The notes under the pieces: model-generated
What the model saw: the letters and a program-made list of their open reading frames with translations, nothing else
What the model was told of the DNA's origin: nothing
The model's database searches: none
Program-made: the position numbers and the translations under genes
Shown here: positions 43,251 to 58,973 of the stretch, piece by piece
How positions within the stretch are numbered: the stretch's first letter is position 1
How the letters are laid out: each line of letters starts with the position of its first letter
Source: a virus
Reading direction: 5' to 3' (one strand)
DNA length: 64,000 bases
IMG/VR virus record: IMGVR_UViG_3300046694_000223
Span: 1 to 64,000 of that record

Positions 43251-45347
43251 TTAAACTGAGCAAGACAGGCAAGTTTCACGAGAAGTGTCTTTTGTTCTCA
43301 TATAATATAGTGTTTTGATGCCTTTATGATGAGCATATAAGTCAATTCGATTCAAATCTCTGGTTGTGTGTGTATCCTTCAGGAATAGAGTAAAACTAAT
43401 CCCTTGGTCTACATGTTGCTGAATCGTAGCGATCATGTCTACAACTTTGAACATATCCATATCATATGCTTCTTTATAGAAGAACCATGTCTCAGGAGAC
43501 AGGTAGGGCATCGGATAATAGGTCTTGGAGTTACCATATGTTCGTTCTTCAATGCGTTCCATAATAGGCATTACGGAAGCCGTAGATGATTGCACATAGG
43601 AGATACTTCCTGTAGGTGCGATTGCTAGACGATATGAATGTCGAAGGCCATACTTCATAGTTTGAATCTTCAATTGTTCCCAATCTGTAGGGGAAGGAAT
43701 CATCATTCCATCAAAGAGAGTTTTGATTTTATCAAATTTTGGAGAGTAATCATTCTCAAGATACCTGTCAAAGTATTTACCAGAGGCATAATCACTATCT
43801 TCAAATCGATAAAACTTTTTACCAGACTCTTTAGCAATCTCCATCGAACGCTTAATAGAATAGTAGTTAACCATCATAAAGAACGTATTTGCAAAGTCTC
43901 TTCCCTGTTCGCTTTCATACGAAATCTTATTCTTTGCCAAGTATCCATGTAAATTCATTGCGCCAAGTCCAATAGAGGCCATCAATTTATTAGCCTTGCT
44001 AACCGCTGGAGCATTTTTTATATCTGTTTTTTCAGAAACAACAGTCAAGGCATCCACGCCAATCTCAACTGTTTCTGCTAGAGATTTATTCTCCATTACA
44101 TTAACAATATTGATTGAGCTAAGGTTGCAGGATACATCAAGTCCAAGAATATCTTCTTCCTTGTAGTCTGTGTAATTAGAAACATCGGTCAATTGAAGTA
44201 TTTCGACACATAAATTTGAGAATTTAACTTTGCCAATTTCCTTGAGTGCATGAACAGCATTAACATTGTCTTCAAACATGATGTATGGATATCCAGATTC
44301 AAATCTTAATGCAGCCATCTTCTCAAGTAGTTTACGTGGGTTAATTTTATCTTTTCTCACATTTGGATTCTGAGCTAATTCATCGTACATTTTGCCCATG
44401 TCCATATCATCAAGATGTTGACCATATTCCTTATAAACTGTATAGGGATAGAAAATATAAGCATCTTTATCTTCTCTTGCTAATTCGATAAATTTATCTG
44501 GAATAACTACGCCGATGGATAGAGTTTTAACACGAACATCTTCATCTGCGCTAATTTTTTTAGTATCGATAAAATCATTAATATCTGCATGAAACACATT
44601 TAGGTATGTTGCTCCAGATCCTTGTCTTTGCCCCATCTGATCCGCATAACGAAAGGCGTTATCCAAGAGCTTCATTACACCCACAACACCCTTAGTGGCA
44701 TTCTCAATTCCTTTGATGGCTTCTCCTTTTGCTCTAATTTTAGAGAGATTTAGTGAAACTCCACCACCAACTTTACTAAGCTGCATAGACATATCCACTG
44801 CTTTGGAGATATCATTTAGTGAATCATTAACCTCCATCAAGAAGCAGCTTACCAGCTCTCCCCTACGCTTACGTCCAGCATTTAAGAATGAAGGTGTACT
44901 TGGCTGAATTTCTTGATTAATAAGTGCCTTAACGAGTTTCTGAGCTTTAATATAATCACCATCTGCTAAGTAAAGGGCAACAATTGATACCCGATCCTCA
45001 TAACGTTCCAGGATCTTCTTTTTATCGTTTGTCTTGAGCGCGTAATCATTATAGAATTTAAATGCGCTCATAAATGATGGGAATCGAAATTTCTTAGAAT
45101 AGGCAATATCGAATACATATTTAATCTGATCATATGTATATTTACTTAGAAACTCTTCTTCGTAATAATCATTTTCAATAAGATAATCTAACTTTTCCTT
45201 TAGATTGTGAAAGAACACTGTATTCTGGTTAATATGATCAATAAAATAACTCTTTACAGCATCCTTATCCTTATCGAATTGATACTGTCCATTTTGTTGA
45301 ATCATGATCTCATTGTTCAAACTAATATATTTTTTTGTGTTAGACAA
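43251..45347 (-). CDS. nrdE: Class Ib ribonucleotide reductase, large subunit
   Basis: This 698-residue protein reduces ribonucleoside diphosphates. It has 'PSTPSFLNAGRKRRGELVSCFL' near residue 150, SNLCVEI near 380, 'YVQSSTASVMPIMERIEER' near 580, and the C-terminal redox pair ETCLSCSV (Cys693, Cys696). There is no allosteric ATP-cone domain, as usual for class Ib. No intein or intron interrupts it. It overlaps nrdI by 8 nt. Confidence 0.95.
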   Translation of the reverse strand: MSNTKKYISLNNEIMIQQNGQYQFDKDKDAVKSYFIDHINQNTVFFHNLKEKLDYLIENDYYEEEFLSKYTYDQIKYVFDIAYSKKFRFPSFMSAFKFYNDYALKTNDKKKILERYEDRVSIVALYLADGDYIKAQKLVKALINQEIQPSTPSFLNAGRKRRGELVSCFLMEVNDSLNDISKAVDMSMQLSKVGGGVSLNLSKIRAKGEAIKGIENATKGVVGVMKLLDNAFRYADQMGQRQGSGATYLNVFHADINDFIDTKKISADEDVRVKTLSIGVVIPDKFIELAREDKDAYIFYPYTVYKEYGQHLDDMDMGKMYDELAQNPNVRKDKINPRKLLEKMAALRFESGYPYIMFEDNVNAVHALKEIGKVKFSNLCVEILQLTDVSNYTDYKEEDILGLDVSCNLSSINIVNVMENKSLAETVEIGVDALTVVSEKTDIKNAPAVSKANKLMASIGLGAMNLHGYLAKNKISYESEQGRDFANTFFMMVNYYSIKRSMEIAKESGKKFYRFEDSDYASGKYFDRYLENDYSPKFDKIKTLFDGMMIPSPTDWEQLKIQTMKYGLRHSYRLAIAPTGSISYVQSSTASVMPIMERIEERTYGNSKTYYPMPYLSPETWFFYKEAYDMDMFKVVDMIATIQQHVDQGISFTLFLKDTHTTRDLNRIDLYAHHKGIKTLYYMRTKDTSRETCLSCSV

Positions 45348-45702
45348 TATTCAATACCTCCTGTTTTATCTTTTCTATGTCATTTTTATTTCCAGATAGT
45401 TCAAACTTATGTAATAGAGGCACATTATATTGTTTCGATATTTTTTCTGCTGCTCCGCAGTAATGCTGGCCCCAGTTGATGTTCCCACTTCCTATTACAC
45501 CTTTTATGTTTGTGTGATTATAAGCTAGGAAAAGATTAACTGATTTTGGCACTTCTCCAAATCCAGTCGTGTATGTAATTAATACATACGGTTCATTAAT
45601 AATTAAATCGGGAGTTATTTTTATACTTCTCATTTCTAATTTATCAATAAACCTTTGAACATTCCCTGTTAATGAATCATATACAACAAGCAATTTAACC
45701 AC
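45340..45702 (-). CDS. nrdI: NrdI flavodoxin-like activator
   Basis: This 120-residue flavodoxin-like protein, with the FMN loop YDSLTGNVQRF (residues 8-18), YTTGFGEVP near 44-52 and 'VIGSGNINWGQHYCGAAE' near 69-86, provides oxidant for assembling the manganese-tyrosyl cofactor in NrdF. It lies in the usual order I-E-F. Confidence 0.93.
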   Translation of the reverse strand: MVKLLVVYDSLTGNVQRFIDKLEMRSIKITPDLIINEPYVLITYTTGFGEVPKSVNLFLAYNHTNIKGVIGSGNINWGQHYCGAAEKISKQYNVPLLHKFELSGNKNDIEKIKQEVLNIV

Positions 45703-45707
45703 CTCCT

Positions 45708-46220
45708 TTACTCATTTAAGGGTAGAAGAATTTCCTTTCCGCATTTTATACTTTCTTGAATTAAAATCACATTTTGGTTGCTACTGCCCCTGTGGGCTAA
45801 ATTGAGATTTTTTAATTCCCCAACAAATTTCCCATCAACGAGCACATCACAATATTTTAATATATTCAATTTTGAATCATCAGATATGATTTGTTGATAT
45901 GTGTAACCACTCCATACCCATATCTGTTTTTCATCTCCATATTCTTTTTTGATTCTAACTAGCAACTTCTCTAACATTGGATCACTAGAACTTTCAATTG
46001 GATCTCCACCTAGCAAACAAAAAGAAGAAATATAATCTGGAGATAGTGCTTCGATAATTTCATCAATTGTGTCATCGGTAAACAATTTGCCAAATTTAAA
46101 GTTCCATGTTTCTGGGTTAAAACATCCAGGACACATGTGACGGCATCCGCTTATGAATGTCGTCACAGAAAATCCTTTAGAATTAATTACATCATATTTA
46201 TATATTGCGCTGTAATACAT
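45708..46220 (-). CDS. nrdG: Anaerobic ribonucleotide reductase activase (radical SAM)
   Basis: This 170-residue activase creates the glycyl radical on NrdD. The radical SAM cluster motif CRHMCPGC has Cys26, Cys30 and Cys33, followed by FNPETWNF, and the LLGGDPIE motif is near residue 70. Start ATG 46220, 1 nt after the nrdD stop. Confidence 0.95.
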   Translation of the reverse strand: MYYSAIYKYDVINSKGFSVTTFISGCRHMCPGCFNPETWNFKFGKLFTDDTIDEIIEALSPDYISSFCLLGGDPIESSSDPMLEKLLVRIKKEYGDEKQIWVWSGYTYQQIISDDSKLNILKYCDVLVDGKFVGELKNLNLAHRGSSNQNVILIQESIKCGKEILLPLNE

Positions 46221-46221
46221 A

Positions 46222-48363
46222 TCATTTTTGTCCTTTATAGTGTTTAACTCTGCTATGTATTTCCTTCATTTTTCCATCAATTGTGGCTCTTTCGGCAAAG
46301 GAACCTAGATATCCAGAAACTCTTCGAACAATACTGAGCATAGTTTTCTCGCTATTGCCGCACTGAGGACAAACATAATCATTCTTATTTACTGTCTGTG
46401 GTTCAATTTCACCCTTATATCCACATGACAAGCACACATCAGAAGATACGTTTACTCCAAAATAATGTGTTTTGTCATAAGCGTATCGAATGATTGTTTC
46501 CAGTGCTTCGACATTGTGAATCATATTGCCAAACTGTACATATTGAATTGCTCCACCGCTTGCAATTTTCGAGAAATTGGCCTCAGTATCAATTTTATCA
46601 AATGGAGAAATGTCATATGTTGCTGGTACATGGAATGAGTTTTCATAATATCCAAGGTTTGTTACGCCGTTGATAATGCCAAAATCCTCAGAATCTTTCT
46701 TACACGCTTTTGTGGCATACACCTCGGCAGGAGTACTATAAATTGAGAAACCAATTCCTGTTTCAGTTTTCAGTTTATCGGCATAATCTCTCATGTATTG
46801 AATTATCTTTACTCCCTTTTGAAGCATCTCATCATTGGATAAAAATGAATCTCCATATAGAGCATTCATACAATTGTACAATCCGAGATATCCAATACTT
46901 GCGGTAGAATAACTATTATCAAGCAGATGATCAATTGTTTCTTCGGGTTCCAGTCTAGCCACCGCACCGCTACAATATAGGATAGGAGCCTGTTTTGCTT
47001 TGACTCCCTTCAGCAGTCCTCTTCGGAACATCAAAACATCCTTAGTTAATTCAAGATATTTATCCAGGAGTTTATAGAAACCCTTTTCGTCTCCTTCAGA
47101 TTTCAATGCCAATCTCGTTAAATTGATTGTAACAACACCGAAATTAAATCTTCCAAGTGTTTTGTCATTCCCAAATTCATCAATAAATCGTGGTAAAAAT
47201 GATCTACAGCTCATTGGGGCCTTATGACTTCCTGTTGTCTCAACCAGCTTATCGTAGTTGATGTAATCAGGATAAAGCCGTTTAGAAGAACATCTTGTTG
47301 CTAATTTAAAAATGTCATAATTCTTATCACTAGGATCAAGGTTTAATCCTCTTTTTAAGGTGTATACGATTTTTGGGAATACGGGAGTAACATCACCCTC
47401 AAATCCCCGAAGTCTGATATTCAAAAAAGACTTTTGAATTAGTCTACAGAACTCACTCTCGCCCAATCCAAACTCAACAGTGACGAAAGGCACTTCTCCC
47501 CGAGAATTGGTCAATGTTTGGATTTCGTATTCGAATGCTTGTGCTGCGTCATAGACTTCTTTTTCGAGGCGTTCCCAAGCATAGTCTCTTGCTGGCTCTT
47601 CGGTCTTAAGCCACTTGAGTCCGACTTCATAATGTTTGTTATATGATTTAATTGCGTATGGTTCAAGTCCAGTACACAGAGAAGGTAATGTTACACCGCC
47701 ATAGCAATTAGAACTTACGTGGGCCACGATCTGGGAAAGTAAAGCGATAGCCGTTGTAATCCCTTTTGGAGTGCTTATTTTAGTGTTTCCCACCTCAAAT
47801 CCATTCTCTAACATGTCAATCCAATTGATGAGAGTACAATTGAAGAATGGAATTGCCATGTAATTGTAATCGTGAATATAAATGCTTCCCTCTTCGTGAG
47901 CATCATTAAAACGTCCAGGAACAATTCTACGCTTTGCATAATCTTTACAAGCAATATCAGCAATCATTGCTCGATATGTTTGAAATTTATCTCCAGCCTT
48001 GTTTGCGTTATTGACAACTTCCTCAGAAGTCATATCAAACAATCCTTGGATTTCTCTATCTATATTGTTAACACTATTTCTTTCTTCGTTCCGTTTAAAC
48101 CGATATCTTATGTATTCTTGTGCTACGTCTTTCCTATTAGACAACATCAGATGCAACTCTACACTGTTCTGGATCATCTCGATGTCGTGTGGCTCTTTTT
48201 CTTTGGATAGTTTATGTTCAACTTTATTTGCTACATTCTCAGCAACTTCTTCATCAATGCCCTTTTCAGTCCTTGCCATAGCCTTCAGGATTGCATTTAC
48301 AATCTTCTGCTTATCAAACTGAACAACGGTTCCATCTCTCTTTGTAACTTGCGTATGCGTCAT
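46222..48363 (-). CDS. nrdD: Anaerobic (class III) ribonucleoside-triphosphate reductase
   Basis: This 713-residue enzyme reduces ribonucleotides without oxygen. Residues 5-95 are an ATP-cone regulatory domain (VTKRDGTVVQFDKQKI). The catalytic core spans about 140-630. The zinc site CLSCGY..CPQCG lies near 641-665, and the glycyl radical loop RVSGYLG near 681. It heads the cassette nrdD-nrdG-nrdI-nrdE-nrdF, so one transcript encodes both oxygen-sensitive and oxygen-dependent reductases. Confidence 0.95.
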   Translation of the reverse strand: MTHTQVTKRDGTVVQFDKQKIVNAILKAMARTEKGIDEEVAENVANKVEHKLSKEKEPHDIEMIQNSVELHLMLSNRKDVAQEYIRYRFKRNEERNSVNNIDREIQGLFDMTSEEVVNNANKAGDKFQTYRAMIADIACKDYAKRRIVPGRFNDAHEEGSIYIHDYNYMAIPFFNCTLINWIDMLENGFEVGNTKISTPKGITTAIALLSQIVAHVSSNCYGGVTLPSLCTGLEPYAIKSYNKHYEVGLKWLKTEEPARDYAWERLEKEVYDAAQAFEYEIQTLTNSRGEVPFVTVEFGLGESEFCRLIQKSFLNIRLRGFEGDVTPVFPKIVYTLKRGLNLDPSDKNYDIFKLATRCSSKRLYPDYINYDKLVETTGSHKAPMSCRSFLPRFIDEFGNDKTLGRFNFGVVTINLTRLALKSEGDEKGFYKLLDKYLELTKDVLMFRRGLLKGVKAKQAPILYCSGAVARLEPEETIDHLLDNSYSTASIGYLGLYNCMNALYGDSFLSNDEMLQKGVKIIQYMRDYADKLKTETGIGFSIYSTPAEVYATKACKKDSEDFGIINGVTNLGYYENSFHVPATYDISPFDKIDTEANFSKIASGGAIQYVQFGNMIHNVEALETIIRYAYDKTHYFGVNVSSDVCLSCGYKGEIEPQTVNKNDYVCPQCGNSEKTMLSIVRRVSGYLGSFAERATIDGKMKEIHSRVKHYKGQK

Positions 48364-51626: not shown

Positions 51627-52394
51627 CTAGTCATTCATTTCTACTTCATAATTTAATAATGCTTGATATAATTTATAAGGAATTTTGCTTTTATACTTCT
51701 CAACGACCTCTTTAATATGTGATTCCTTGCATAACTTATAACAGTCAAAAGCTTCCACTTCTTCGTTCAGCTCAAAAACGCCAATGCAAATTCTTTTGTT
51801 TGTGATTTGGTTTGTGTATTGTACTTTTAATTTATTTGCCCTTGGGTCAAAGTGGACTCCGATAGGATAACTCCCTCTTCTTGTATTGCACTTATTAAGT
51901 ATTGAATTAATATTGTGTGGTACGAATATACATGTCTCCGGCGAATAAACTTTATTGCCTTTGACAAGTAAATCTTTATCTAATTCGAGTTGTTCATTGT
52001 TGATATTGTAATAATTTTCTTCGCACCACTTTGCGAAATTTTGATAGTTGTGCCACTCTTCGCAAACTGTGCAACCTACATAAGATATATTGTTTTTAGT
52101 CTGATCTCCATAACATCTATTTAGCATATTAACCCACTTAGAATAAAACAAAGATTTTTGTCCATTGTATCTTGATTTATATGTCCCGCTGCCCATATAA
52201 CCCACGCCGCATACAAAAGGAAAATATGAATTCTTTATAGAGCCTGATTTTACCTGATTCCATTTCACATTCTTTTCATAACCAAAAATATCTAAAAATT
52301 TAATTCTAATATTTCGTGTATTAGTATAACTAATTATTGTAAATTTACTTCCCTGTGTATTTGTATAAATCTTTTTTTCTCTTTCGTTTAACAT
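51627..52394 (-). CDS. HNH-type homing endonuclease with AP2-like tail
   Basis: This 255-residue protein is related to the one at 41558-42259: 'YSKWVNMLNRCYGDQ...YVGCTVCEEWHNYQNFAKW', then 'LELDKDLLVKGNKVYSPETCIFVPHNIN', the HNH-type nuclease core. Residues about 180-225 (GVHFDPRANKLKVQYTN...RICIGVF) resemble an AP2 DNA-binding domain, which is common in phage homing nucleases. ATG 52394 follows AGAGGATAATC. It is inserted next to a duplicated 5' fragment of its neighbour. Confidence 0.82.
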   Translation of the reverse strand: MLNEREKKIYTNTQGSKFTIISYTNTRNIRIKFLDIFGYEKNVKWNQVKSGSIKNSYFPFVCGVGYMGSGTYKSRYNGQKSLFYSKWVNMLNRCYGDQTKNNISYVGCTVCEEWHNYQNFAKWCEENYYNINNEQLELDKDLLVKGNKVYSPETCIFVPHNINSILNKCNTRRGSYPIGVHFDPRANKLKVQYTNQITNKRICIGVFELNEEVEAFDCYKLCKESHIKEVVEKYKSKIPYKLYQALLNYEVEMND

Positions 52395-57287: not shown

Positions 57288-57332
57288 ATTATATAATGTA
57301 TTTTGGTATTTGTATATATTTATTTATTAAAT
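57288..57332 (-). promoter_or_regulatory. Phage promoter (AT-box type) downstream of recJ
   Basis: On the - strand: box ATTTAATAAATAAATA (57332-57317), TATACA (57316-57311), 17 nt, TATAAT (57293-57288). The box overlaps the stop codon of the recJ-like gene. Confidence 0.8.
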
Positions 57333-58973
57333 ATTTTCCCGATAATCATCAATGAAAAGTTGCAGTGTTTTGGTGATTTTAAACTTGGGTTTATAAACTT
57401 TCCAGATATTAATGTTGAGCGATCCAATAGCTTCAATCTCTGAAAACACCGGGACAGAATTAAAATATTGCTCATCTGTCTTAAACTTCATTAACTGAAT
57501 CTTATCACAGTCAACCTTCACTGTGTTTGCGGATTTACCCATAAGCTTTTTATCAGAGACGAATAACCCTCTAATGAGAAACTTTCCCTGCTTGAATTTG
57601 TTTCCTGTTATCCGGTAAAACTCATTTAGATAATTGACTAAGTTTTCATTAACATCAGACAAGTTAAACTCTAGATCATAATACAGAGAATCATCTGCTT
57701 CAAAGTTGGTCAATTTTTTGTTCAGTTCATACTGGAGTTTGCCTAGATTGACTTTGAGCAACTGTACTCCTCCAGCACCTGGATGACCTCCTGTATAAAA
57801 AACATTGTCACAGTCAGCAAGTAAATCCAACATTGAGAAATCTTCAAGTCCTCGGAAGCTTCCTGCGTATGCATCTTCGGTGTCGCCTTCACCCAATACA
57901 ATTGCTGGCCTATTAAATGTTCTAGATAGCTCTTGCGCTACAAGCCCCATCATCCCTTTTCCAAGTGATGGATCAACAACGATAATTGTCTTATTTGATT
58001 CGTCTATTGTTGGTTTCAACCGTTGCAAAGCTTCAGCTTGAACCTCCTTACGCTTCTCGTTAGCCTTTACCAACTCTTTAGCCAATCCTTTAATGTCGTC
58101 TGAGTCGTCTACGCACATCAGAAAGTCAATTGCTAACTGAATATTATCGGCTCGTGTAGCAGCCGTTACAGCAGGACTCACGCCGTACAAGAAGTCTGTC
58201 GCAGATAGGTTTAATAGATCATAATTCATTGCTTGAAACAACGCCTTAAGTCCTGCATGATGTAGATTTTTTAATGACTGCTTTGCGTAATATCTATTCT
58301 CTAATTCCAACATAGACATCATATCAGCCATAAGTGCAAATCCGGGCAGATCATCGAGCTTGTTTGAATAATATGTATTCATGTAATCATCAATGACTTG
58401 ACAAACTTTAAAGACCAACAATCCTCCGCAAGCATTTTTATTAGGGTAGGAGCATCCCTCTTGCTGGGGATTGACTAAAATAGCATACGGATTATCTACT
58501 GTAACCGTATGATGGTCGATTATTAAACAGTCAATTCCTTTTGATGATAGTAATTTCATTGTTTCAACGTCATTTGATGAACTGTCTACTGCAATCAGTA
58601 CCTTTGTCGATTCAGGAATTGTTTCAACTAGTCCATTAATATTATGCCCCTCAGAGCGTTCATTGCACACGTAATATACTTCGTCGGTGAAATTAAGTAG
58701 ATACTTATACATTGTCACCAACGAAGTTACACCGTCATAGTCTAGCTAATCAGGGTCGCCAGTAATTGTAATAGGCTCACGGTTCCGAATTGCAAGGATG
58801 ATTCGTGTAGCCAATTCGTTAATATTCTTAAGTAGATAGGAATCACAAATTACATTAGACAGTGGATTCAGGAATTGATCAATGTTTGTGATTCCGTTTA
58901 ATTTTGCAAGCATAGAATATGTATTATCATATGATTCAAATGGAATGACAGGTGTTTTTTGTTTCCATTTCAT
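57327..58973 (-). CDS. recJ: RecJ-like DHH exonuclease, interrupted by an in-frame TAG in motif I
   Basis: Two adjacent frames (58973-58746 and on to 57327) form one RecJ-like gene of about 545 residues. N-terminal residues 1-75 end ..TITGDPD followed by TAG; the same frame continues LDYDGVTSLVTMYKYL. Later motifs are intact: AVDSSSND, LIIDHH, 'NKNACGGLLVFKV', and the DHHA1-type GGHPGAGG. Dropping 9 nt (58740-58748) gives GDPDYDGVTS, an exact DxDxDG motif I. The second frame's GTG 58721 is not a plausible start because it lacks motif I. SPbeta encodes a RecJ-like protein (YorK) near its polymerase. Translational bypass, readthrough or gene inactivation are possible. Confidence 0.82.

Follow-up and report, generated by a model that had tools for sequence, protein, structure and literature searches.

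An interrupted recJ-like gene

The window analyzed here, a stretch of 64,000 nucleotides (nt) from a virus (positions 1 to 64,000 of the IMG/VR record IMGVR_UViG_3300046694_000223), carries on its minus strand, from 58973 to an end at 57327, a recJ-like gene whose frame is broken by a TAG after codon 75. An original prediction made from the letters of this DNA had placed the stop inside the catalytic DxDxDG motif of RecJ, and the junction was confirmed: from 58760 to 58731 the minus strand reads GGC GAC CCT GAT, followed by TAG CTA GAC and then by TAT GAC GGT, with the nine nucleotides TAGCTAGAC (58748..58740) located between the GAT and the TAT of the motif. The first open reading frame (ORF1), stop included, extends from 58973 to 58746, the TAG occupying 58748-58746. 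Removal of 58740-58748 restores DPDYDG, as the prediction had proposed, which corresponds to RecJ motif I (DxDxDG), and in the window gene this motif is present only when the insert is skipped.

Pfam searches with the second half of the gene (ORF2) identified DHH and RecJ_OB domains exceeding their cut-offs, with DHHA1 slightly under its own (23.5 vs 25.9 bits). For DHH, the second half by itself scored 54.0 bits; translating the stop as X raised this to 56.4 and skipping the 9 nt to 61.3, compared to 65.0 for an intact homologue. The intact homologue L036 (loci are given L numbers throughout) matches solved RecJ structures across the motif, and the product of the window gene is predicted from its sequence to be a phage RecJ-type single-strand DNA exonuclease. 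No second copy of recJ was detected in the 166.6-kb record. The insert element occurs nowhere else in the window, and no related record searched contains more than one.

The same interruption in related genes

Protein and pattern scans of viral contigs, together with a survey of genomes in the family of Paenibacillus dendrobii, revealed seven more distinct genes interrupted at exactly the same position as the window gene, making a total of eight from independent assemblies that include both metagenomes and isolate genomes. The possibility raised in the prediction that the 9 nt might be unique was thus not borne out by alignment with the recJ genes of related phages. The second halves of these seven genes share 70-91% identity with that of the window gene. 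Three of the eight genes harbor a 9-nt insert (TAGCTAGAC in the window, TAGCCAGGC in L001 and L049) and five a 10-nt insert (TAGTTAGGAT in L002, L003 and L015, TAGTTAAGAT in L004, and TAGTTCAGAT in L051), the latter being alike at 8-10 of their 10 nt. L003 and L015 are also represented by isolate-genome copies (L050 and L055, respectively), and L049 and L051 come from the genomes of bacterial isolates. The motif is unbroken (GDPD-F/Y-DG) in the close relatives L022, L024, L025 and L028, which are 74-77% identical, and it is intact in most of the 80 viral RecJ loci surveyed.

All eight interrupted genes rebuild D-P-D-Y/F-D-G only if the insert is skipped, and the 10-nt inserts put the two halves in different frames. 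The UAG lies directly 3' of a GAU, the putative take-off codon, in every one of the eight, and the final triplet of the insert, the putative landing codon, encodes Asp (GAU or GAC) in six of them, with 9- and 10-nt inserts alike.

Coding selection on both sides of the insert

As estimated from these sequence comparisons, purifying selection is strong on both halves of the gene and extends to the codons adjacent to the insert. For pairs with computable synonymous rates (dS), the ratio of nonsynonymous to synonymous substitution rates (dN/dS) ranged from about 0.02 to 0.13 for ORF1 and from about 0.05 to 0.065 for ORF2, with synonymous sites saturated among distant members (proportion of synonymous differences, pS, 0.7-0.9). 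The codons preceding the insert are GGC/GGA GAC/GAT CCT/CCC GAT and those following it are TAT/TAC GAC/GAT GGT/GGC/GGA GTA ACT/ACA TCG/TCA, variation that is exclusively synonymous except for a Y to F replacement in L051. As the junction codons change only synonymously, both sides are therefore translated, GDPD in the frame of ORF1 and YDGVTS in that of ORF2. A slight local drop in synonymous variation was observed at the junction, and other places in the gene show the same.

RNA hairpins around the junction

A 12-13-bp stem located 12 nt beyond the landing codon was found in seven of the eight interrupted genes, and, counted from the first base of the stop codon, the most stable 69-nt stretch of the window gene starts 12 nt downstream. 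Pairing in this 3' stem is complete (13/13) in six genes, 12/13 in L051 and 9/13 in L015, compared to 7-10/13 in intact relatives. Three pairs are altered on both arms, and pairing was lost when the arms were slid; in the intact control, 62% of the cells were paired and the covariation measures were no higher than those of shuffles. In folding tests in which the protein was held fixed and synonymous codons were redrawn, the stability of the 3' region was reached in 0.7% of the draws or fewer (p-value ≤ 0.007) for the window gene, L001, L002, L003 and L049, and in 5% (p-value: 0.05) for L051. Upstream of the take-off codon, L015 contains an 11-bp stem (p-value: 0.002-0.015 vs synonymous redraws), and a stem in L001, L002 and L049 gave p-values of 0.003-0.018 in the same comparison. 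The coordinates of these features in the window are collected in Table 1.

Table 1. Features of the interrupted recJ-like gene in the window.
Feature	Position	Strand	Remarks
First half (ORF1)	58749..58973	-	75 sense codons, MKWKQ...TITGDPD; last codon is the take-off codon
Putative take-off codon GAT (Asp)	58749..58751	-	Same in 8/8 interrupted genes
Insert TAGCTAGAC (UAG stop + CTA + GAC)	58740..58748	-	Relatives: TAGCCAGGC, TAGTTAGGAT, TAGTTAAGAT, TAGTTCAGAT, same position
Putative landing codon GAC (Asp)	58740..58742	-	Relatives: GAT in 5, GGC in 2
Second half (ORF2), TAT codon to stop	57327..58739	-	DHH/DHHA1/RecJ_OB domains
RecJ motif I DxDxDG (DPD, YDG), split by the insert	58731..58757	-	Restored when the insert is skipped
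3' hairpin, 13-bp stem	58678..58727	-	Begins 12 nt past the landing codon
5' hairpin position (CGUGA...UUACA)	58767..58781	-	7-11 bp in L001, L002, L049 and L015, but weak in the window

Alternative explanations

The two halves could be separate polypeptides that assemble with each other, ORF2 being started internally. Homing endonucleases are known to split genes with working split products (PMC2988022), and possible TTG, GTG or ATG starts are located 6-9 codons into ORF2 in the window and several relatives. Such a split gene is nevertheless unlikely. The break lies within the catalytic motif, the YDGVTS codons, ahead of any possible start, are kept at the amino acid level with synonymous change only, and no ATG, GTG or TTG exists within the first 45 ORF2 codons of L015, whose second half therefore cannot be made by independent initiation. 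Readthrough of the UAG, accompanied by a +1 frameshift in the 10-nt members, would yield GDPD-X-LDYDG, and we regard it as quite improbable, even though the window frame is open past the UAG and a +1 shift in the 10-nt TAGTTAGGAT genes would again produce X-L-D. As the frames differ in the five 10-nt genes, simple readthrough, an alternative considered in the original prediction, cannot alone join their halves, and two separate recoding events would be required in each of them. Moreover, readthrough would add three residues to a metal-binding motif where intact relatives have none, would produce X-P-G in L001 and L049, and would give a product with a lower DHH score than the skipped one (56.4 vs 61.3 bits); no tRNA genes were found in the whole 166.6-kb record, and hence no phage suppressor tRNA was detected.

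Removal of the 9-10 nt from RNA or DNA, as a mini-intron or by programmed excision, would restore the motif in all members, and a GATTA direct repeat in the 10-nt form could allow a slip deletion to heal the gene in DNA. This explanation is very unlikely, as the insert is kept in all eight DNA assemblies, no Rfam family, introns included, matched at the recJ junction, and we know of no splicing system that takes out 9-10 nt. Finally, a stop codon in the active site is the usual mark of a dead gene, but inactivation, or an error of sequencing or assembly, is hardly credible when eight distinct genes, of metagenomic as well as isolate origin, have the same insert and purifying selection acts on both halves. 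The prediction had listed a gene-killing 9-nt insertion and an assembly error among its alternatives; with dS saturated, dN/dS values near 0.05 for each half speak against the former, and the sharing of the interruption by eight distinct genes against the latter. Judged by these sequences, the interruption is neither a private mutation nor an assembly error, and the finding is real, conserved and out of the ordinary.

A short ribosomal bypass as the proposed mechanism

With readthrough and an independent start disfavored as above, skipping remains. The best explanation of the sequence data, and a likely one, is natural programmed translational bypassing of the 9-10 nt that interrupt this phage RecJ gene. 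The leading idea of the original prediction, a hop from GAT to an Asp codon over the UAG resembling a miniature T4 gene 60, thus appears as the best-supported reading once relatives are compared. The sequences show the position and conservation of the insert, the two-sided selection, the frame arithmetic and the hairpin; the hop, the tRNA that would make it and what the hairpins do are inferred.

In this mechanism, ribosomes would read ORF1 up to the GAU of the DxDxDG motif, whereupon the UAG would enter the A site and a fraction of the ribosomes would escape termination, the peptidyl-tRNA-Asp releasing the GAU. The mRNA would then slide forward by 9 nt (10 nt in relatives), the tRNA would re-pair with a second Asp codon (GAC in the window, GAU in most relatives), and decoding would restart at UAU GAC GGU to generate DPDYDG, with a predicted full-length product spanning ITITGDPDYDGVTSL. 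Six of the eight inserts, whatever their length, end in an Asp codon, which would fit re-pairing of peptidyl-tRNA-Asp at that triplet. The hairpin 12 nt past the landing codon probably fixes the landing position, and the upstream hairpin of some relatives may push the ribosome forward on refolding.

Several observations weigh against such a bypass. Its weakest point is the triplet at the landing position of L001 and L049, which is GGC instead of an Asp codon and could pair with tRNA-Asp only through a middle G.U; with all frames considered, the closest Asp codon is 15 nt further downstream, and landing there would drop two residues of the motif. By its title, one study of gene 60 cited in PMC3014915 reportedly found that minimal re-pairing can suffice. 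The structural evidence is likewise uneven. The 3' hairpin is missing from L015, the 3' stem of L004 alone is non-significant (12-15% of the draws, p-value about 0.12-0.15), and the covariation score was matched by 17 of 500 shuffles, a modest control with 8 related sequences. On the 5' side, the hairpin is strong only in L001, L002, L049 and L015, and a take-off hairpin was rejected as a universal feature, as L001, L002, L015, L049 and L051 can fold it and the window and L004 cannot. In addition, no nascent-peptide signal could be recognized. The ORF1 of the interrupted genes is like that of intact relatives.

Origin of the insert and other unusual recJ loci

In a protein tree, seven of the interrupted genes form one supported group, and L015 is placed among intact genes. 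Between about 80 and 440 nt past the insert, the DNA of L015 is about 97-100% identical to that of the intact L022, compared to only about 76-83% for the part of recJ upstream of the insert, which places a recombination boundary close to the insert, on its downstream side. Directly upstream of the L015 recJ is a 303-codon LAGLIDADG gene (PF14528, 24.9 bits vs a cut-off of 22.5; phrog_4645 "endonuclease", 1.4e-42), which is absent from the corresponding place in L022, where its flanking genes adjoin. This neighbor is predicted from its sequence to be a free-standing homing-endonuclease gene, and the arrangement would be the pattern expected from homing with co-conversion, with the caveat that mosaicism is general in phage genomes. 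A homing scar, offered in the prediction as an alternative to the hop, is hardly a rival to it: homing may be the origin of the insert, given the nuclease gene that adjoins recJ in L015.

We give slightly less than even odds to an immunity model, in which the insert may be kept since it destroys a homing-endonuclease site in the conserved motif. Weighing on this model, L015 is a single case, as no relatives of its nuclease were found in the other members searched. The insert of T4 gene 60 has also been proposed as a protection against a nuclease (PMC5009743), and the L015 arrangement resembles that of mobA beside gene 60.

Additional recJ loci presented irregularities of their own. The unrelated phage L104 (1470-1520) reads GAC CCG TAG TCA GAT CCT GAT GGT, in which skipping 6 nt would give DPDPDG; being a singleton without a close relative, it is only a weak candidate. 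L058 (also L154), from a Paenibacillaceae genome, reads TCA GAT CCC TGA C TAC GAT GG, where a +1 shift at CCC_UGA would give DPDYDG; in the second half of this gene, no listed start codon occurs before about codon 86. CCC_UGA_C is a textbook +1 frameshift context. Either recoding arose separately in L058 or sequencing added a single C to a C-run, and L058, known from a single genome, is only a weak candidate. Other cases were discarded: the split recJ of Lactococcus phage AM1 (L063:1116-3129), unrelated, is a tandem partial duplication of the 5' part of recJ with two annotated exonuclease genes; L132 and L135, also unrelated, have extra in-frame stops elsewhere in the gene and are probably stop-reassigning phages; L121 shifts frame at an A-run that is far removed from the motif; and L160 is a chance pattern match without RecJ.

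More speculatively, the RecJ catalytic motif might be a recurrent recoding site at which nuclease-immunity inserts arise or spread repeatedly, each tuned for skipping: by the GAU-to-GAU/GAC hop in the eight genes, perhaps by a CCG_UAG_UCA stop-hop in L104 and perhaps by the CCC_UGA +1 shift in L058. Together with its nuclease gene, the L015 insert would then constitute a mobile bypass cassette.

Neighboring genes

Within the window, an HNH endonuclease gene (phrog_953; 51627-52394, minus strand), possibly encoding a homing endonuclease, is located about 5 kb from the end of recJ, and genes for the large subunits of aerobic (698 aa, NrdA-like) and anaerobic (713 aa, NrdD-like) ribonucleotide reductases are found close together at 43251-48363 (minus strand). 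The anaerobic ribonucleotide reductase NrdD of L015 (183-2407, minus strand) is encoded in two ORFs (Pfam NRDD 1-263 and 264-562) separated by a gap of about 236 nt, in which group I intron-like motifs were seen by eye, with no Rfam match at the gathering threshold. RNA ligase genes (PF09414) lie near recJ in the relatives L002 (9239-10324) and L006 (4382-5269).

Comparison with known systems

Ordinary phage RecJ/DHH exonucleases, such as those of Bacillus phage FADO and Brevibacillus phage Sundance, are homologous and share the same motif I, but their genes are unbroken. To our knowledge, the case for natural programmed bypassing in bacteria and phages consists of T4 gene 60, with a small number of candidates that lack proof. 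Judging from sequence, the recJ case would be a rare new natural instance of ribosomes skipping part of a message, in phages related to those in Paenibacillus. Eight diverged genes with 9- or 10-nt inserts, with intact close relatives as controls, would supply comparative data that the field lacks, separating constant features (take-off codon and UAG) from variable ones (gap length, landing codon and hairpins). The short gap makes the system amenable to ordinary reporters, and the link to a homing endonuclease offers a way to test bypass inserts as immunity against mobile nucleases.

As in gene 60-type bypassing, one protein would be produced from two ORFs separated by an untranslated gap, with coding selection on both; a stop directly follows the take-off codon in all eight genes, and a 3' RNA structure, with a putative stimulatory role, is present in seven. 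In gene 60, a 5' and a 3' stem-loop propel the ribosome as it slides and assist its landing (PMC11194080), and the hairpin roles proposed for recJ are drawn by analogy with them. In recJ, the take-off hairpin is weak or absent and no nascent-peptide signal is recognized. The gap is 9-10 nt instead of 50 nt, the proposed hop uses Asp instead of Gly, the nuclease neighbor is of the LAGLIDADG type (at the L015 recJ) instead of HNH, and the gene and phages are different.

The short frame-breaking inserts tolerated through bypassing in the mitochondria of Magnusiomyces capitatus, the byp elements, offer a second likeness. They are numerous throughout the genome and described as independent of mRNA context (PMC5009743), whereas the recJ insert occupies one site per phage in the records tested and is accompanied by local RNA structure. 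In synthetic "stop hops", matched codons flank a stop and 9 nt are decoded as one residue (cited in PMC5009743), and a 2016 review knew of no natural in-frame stop-hopping (PMC5009743). The proposed recJ hop would resemble them in that the P-site tRNA jumps a UAG to a nearby matched codon, but it would be natural, conserved and longer, with 12-13 nt yielding one residue, and associated with hairpins.
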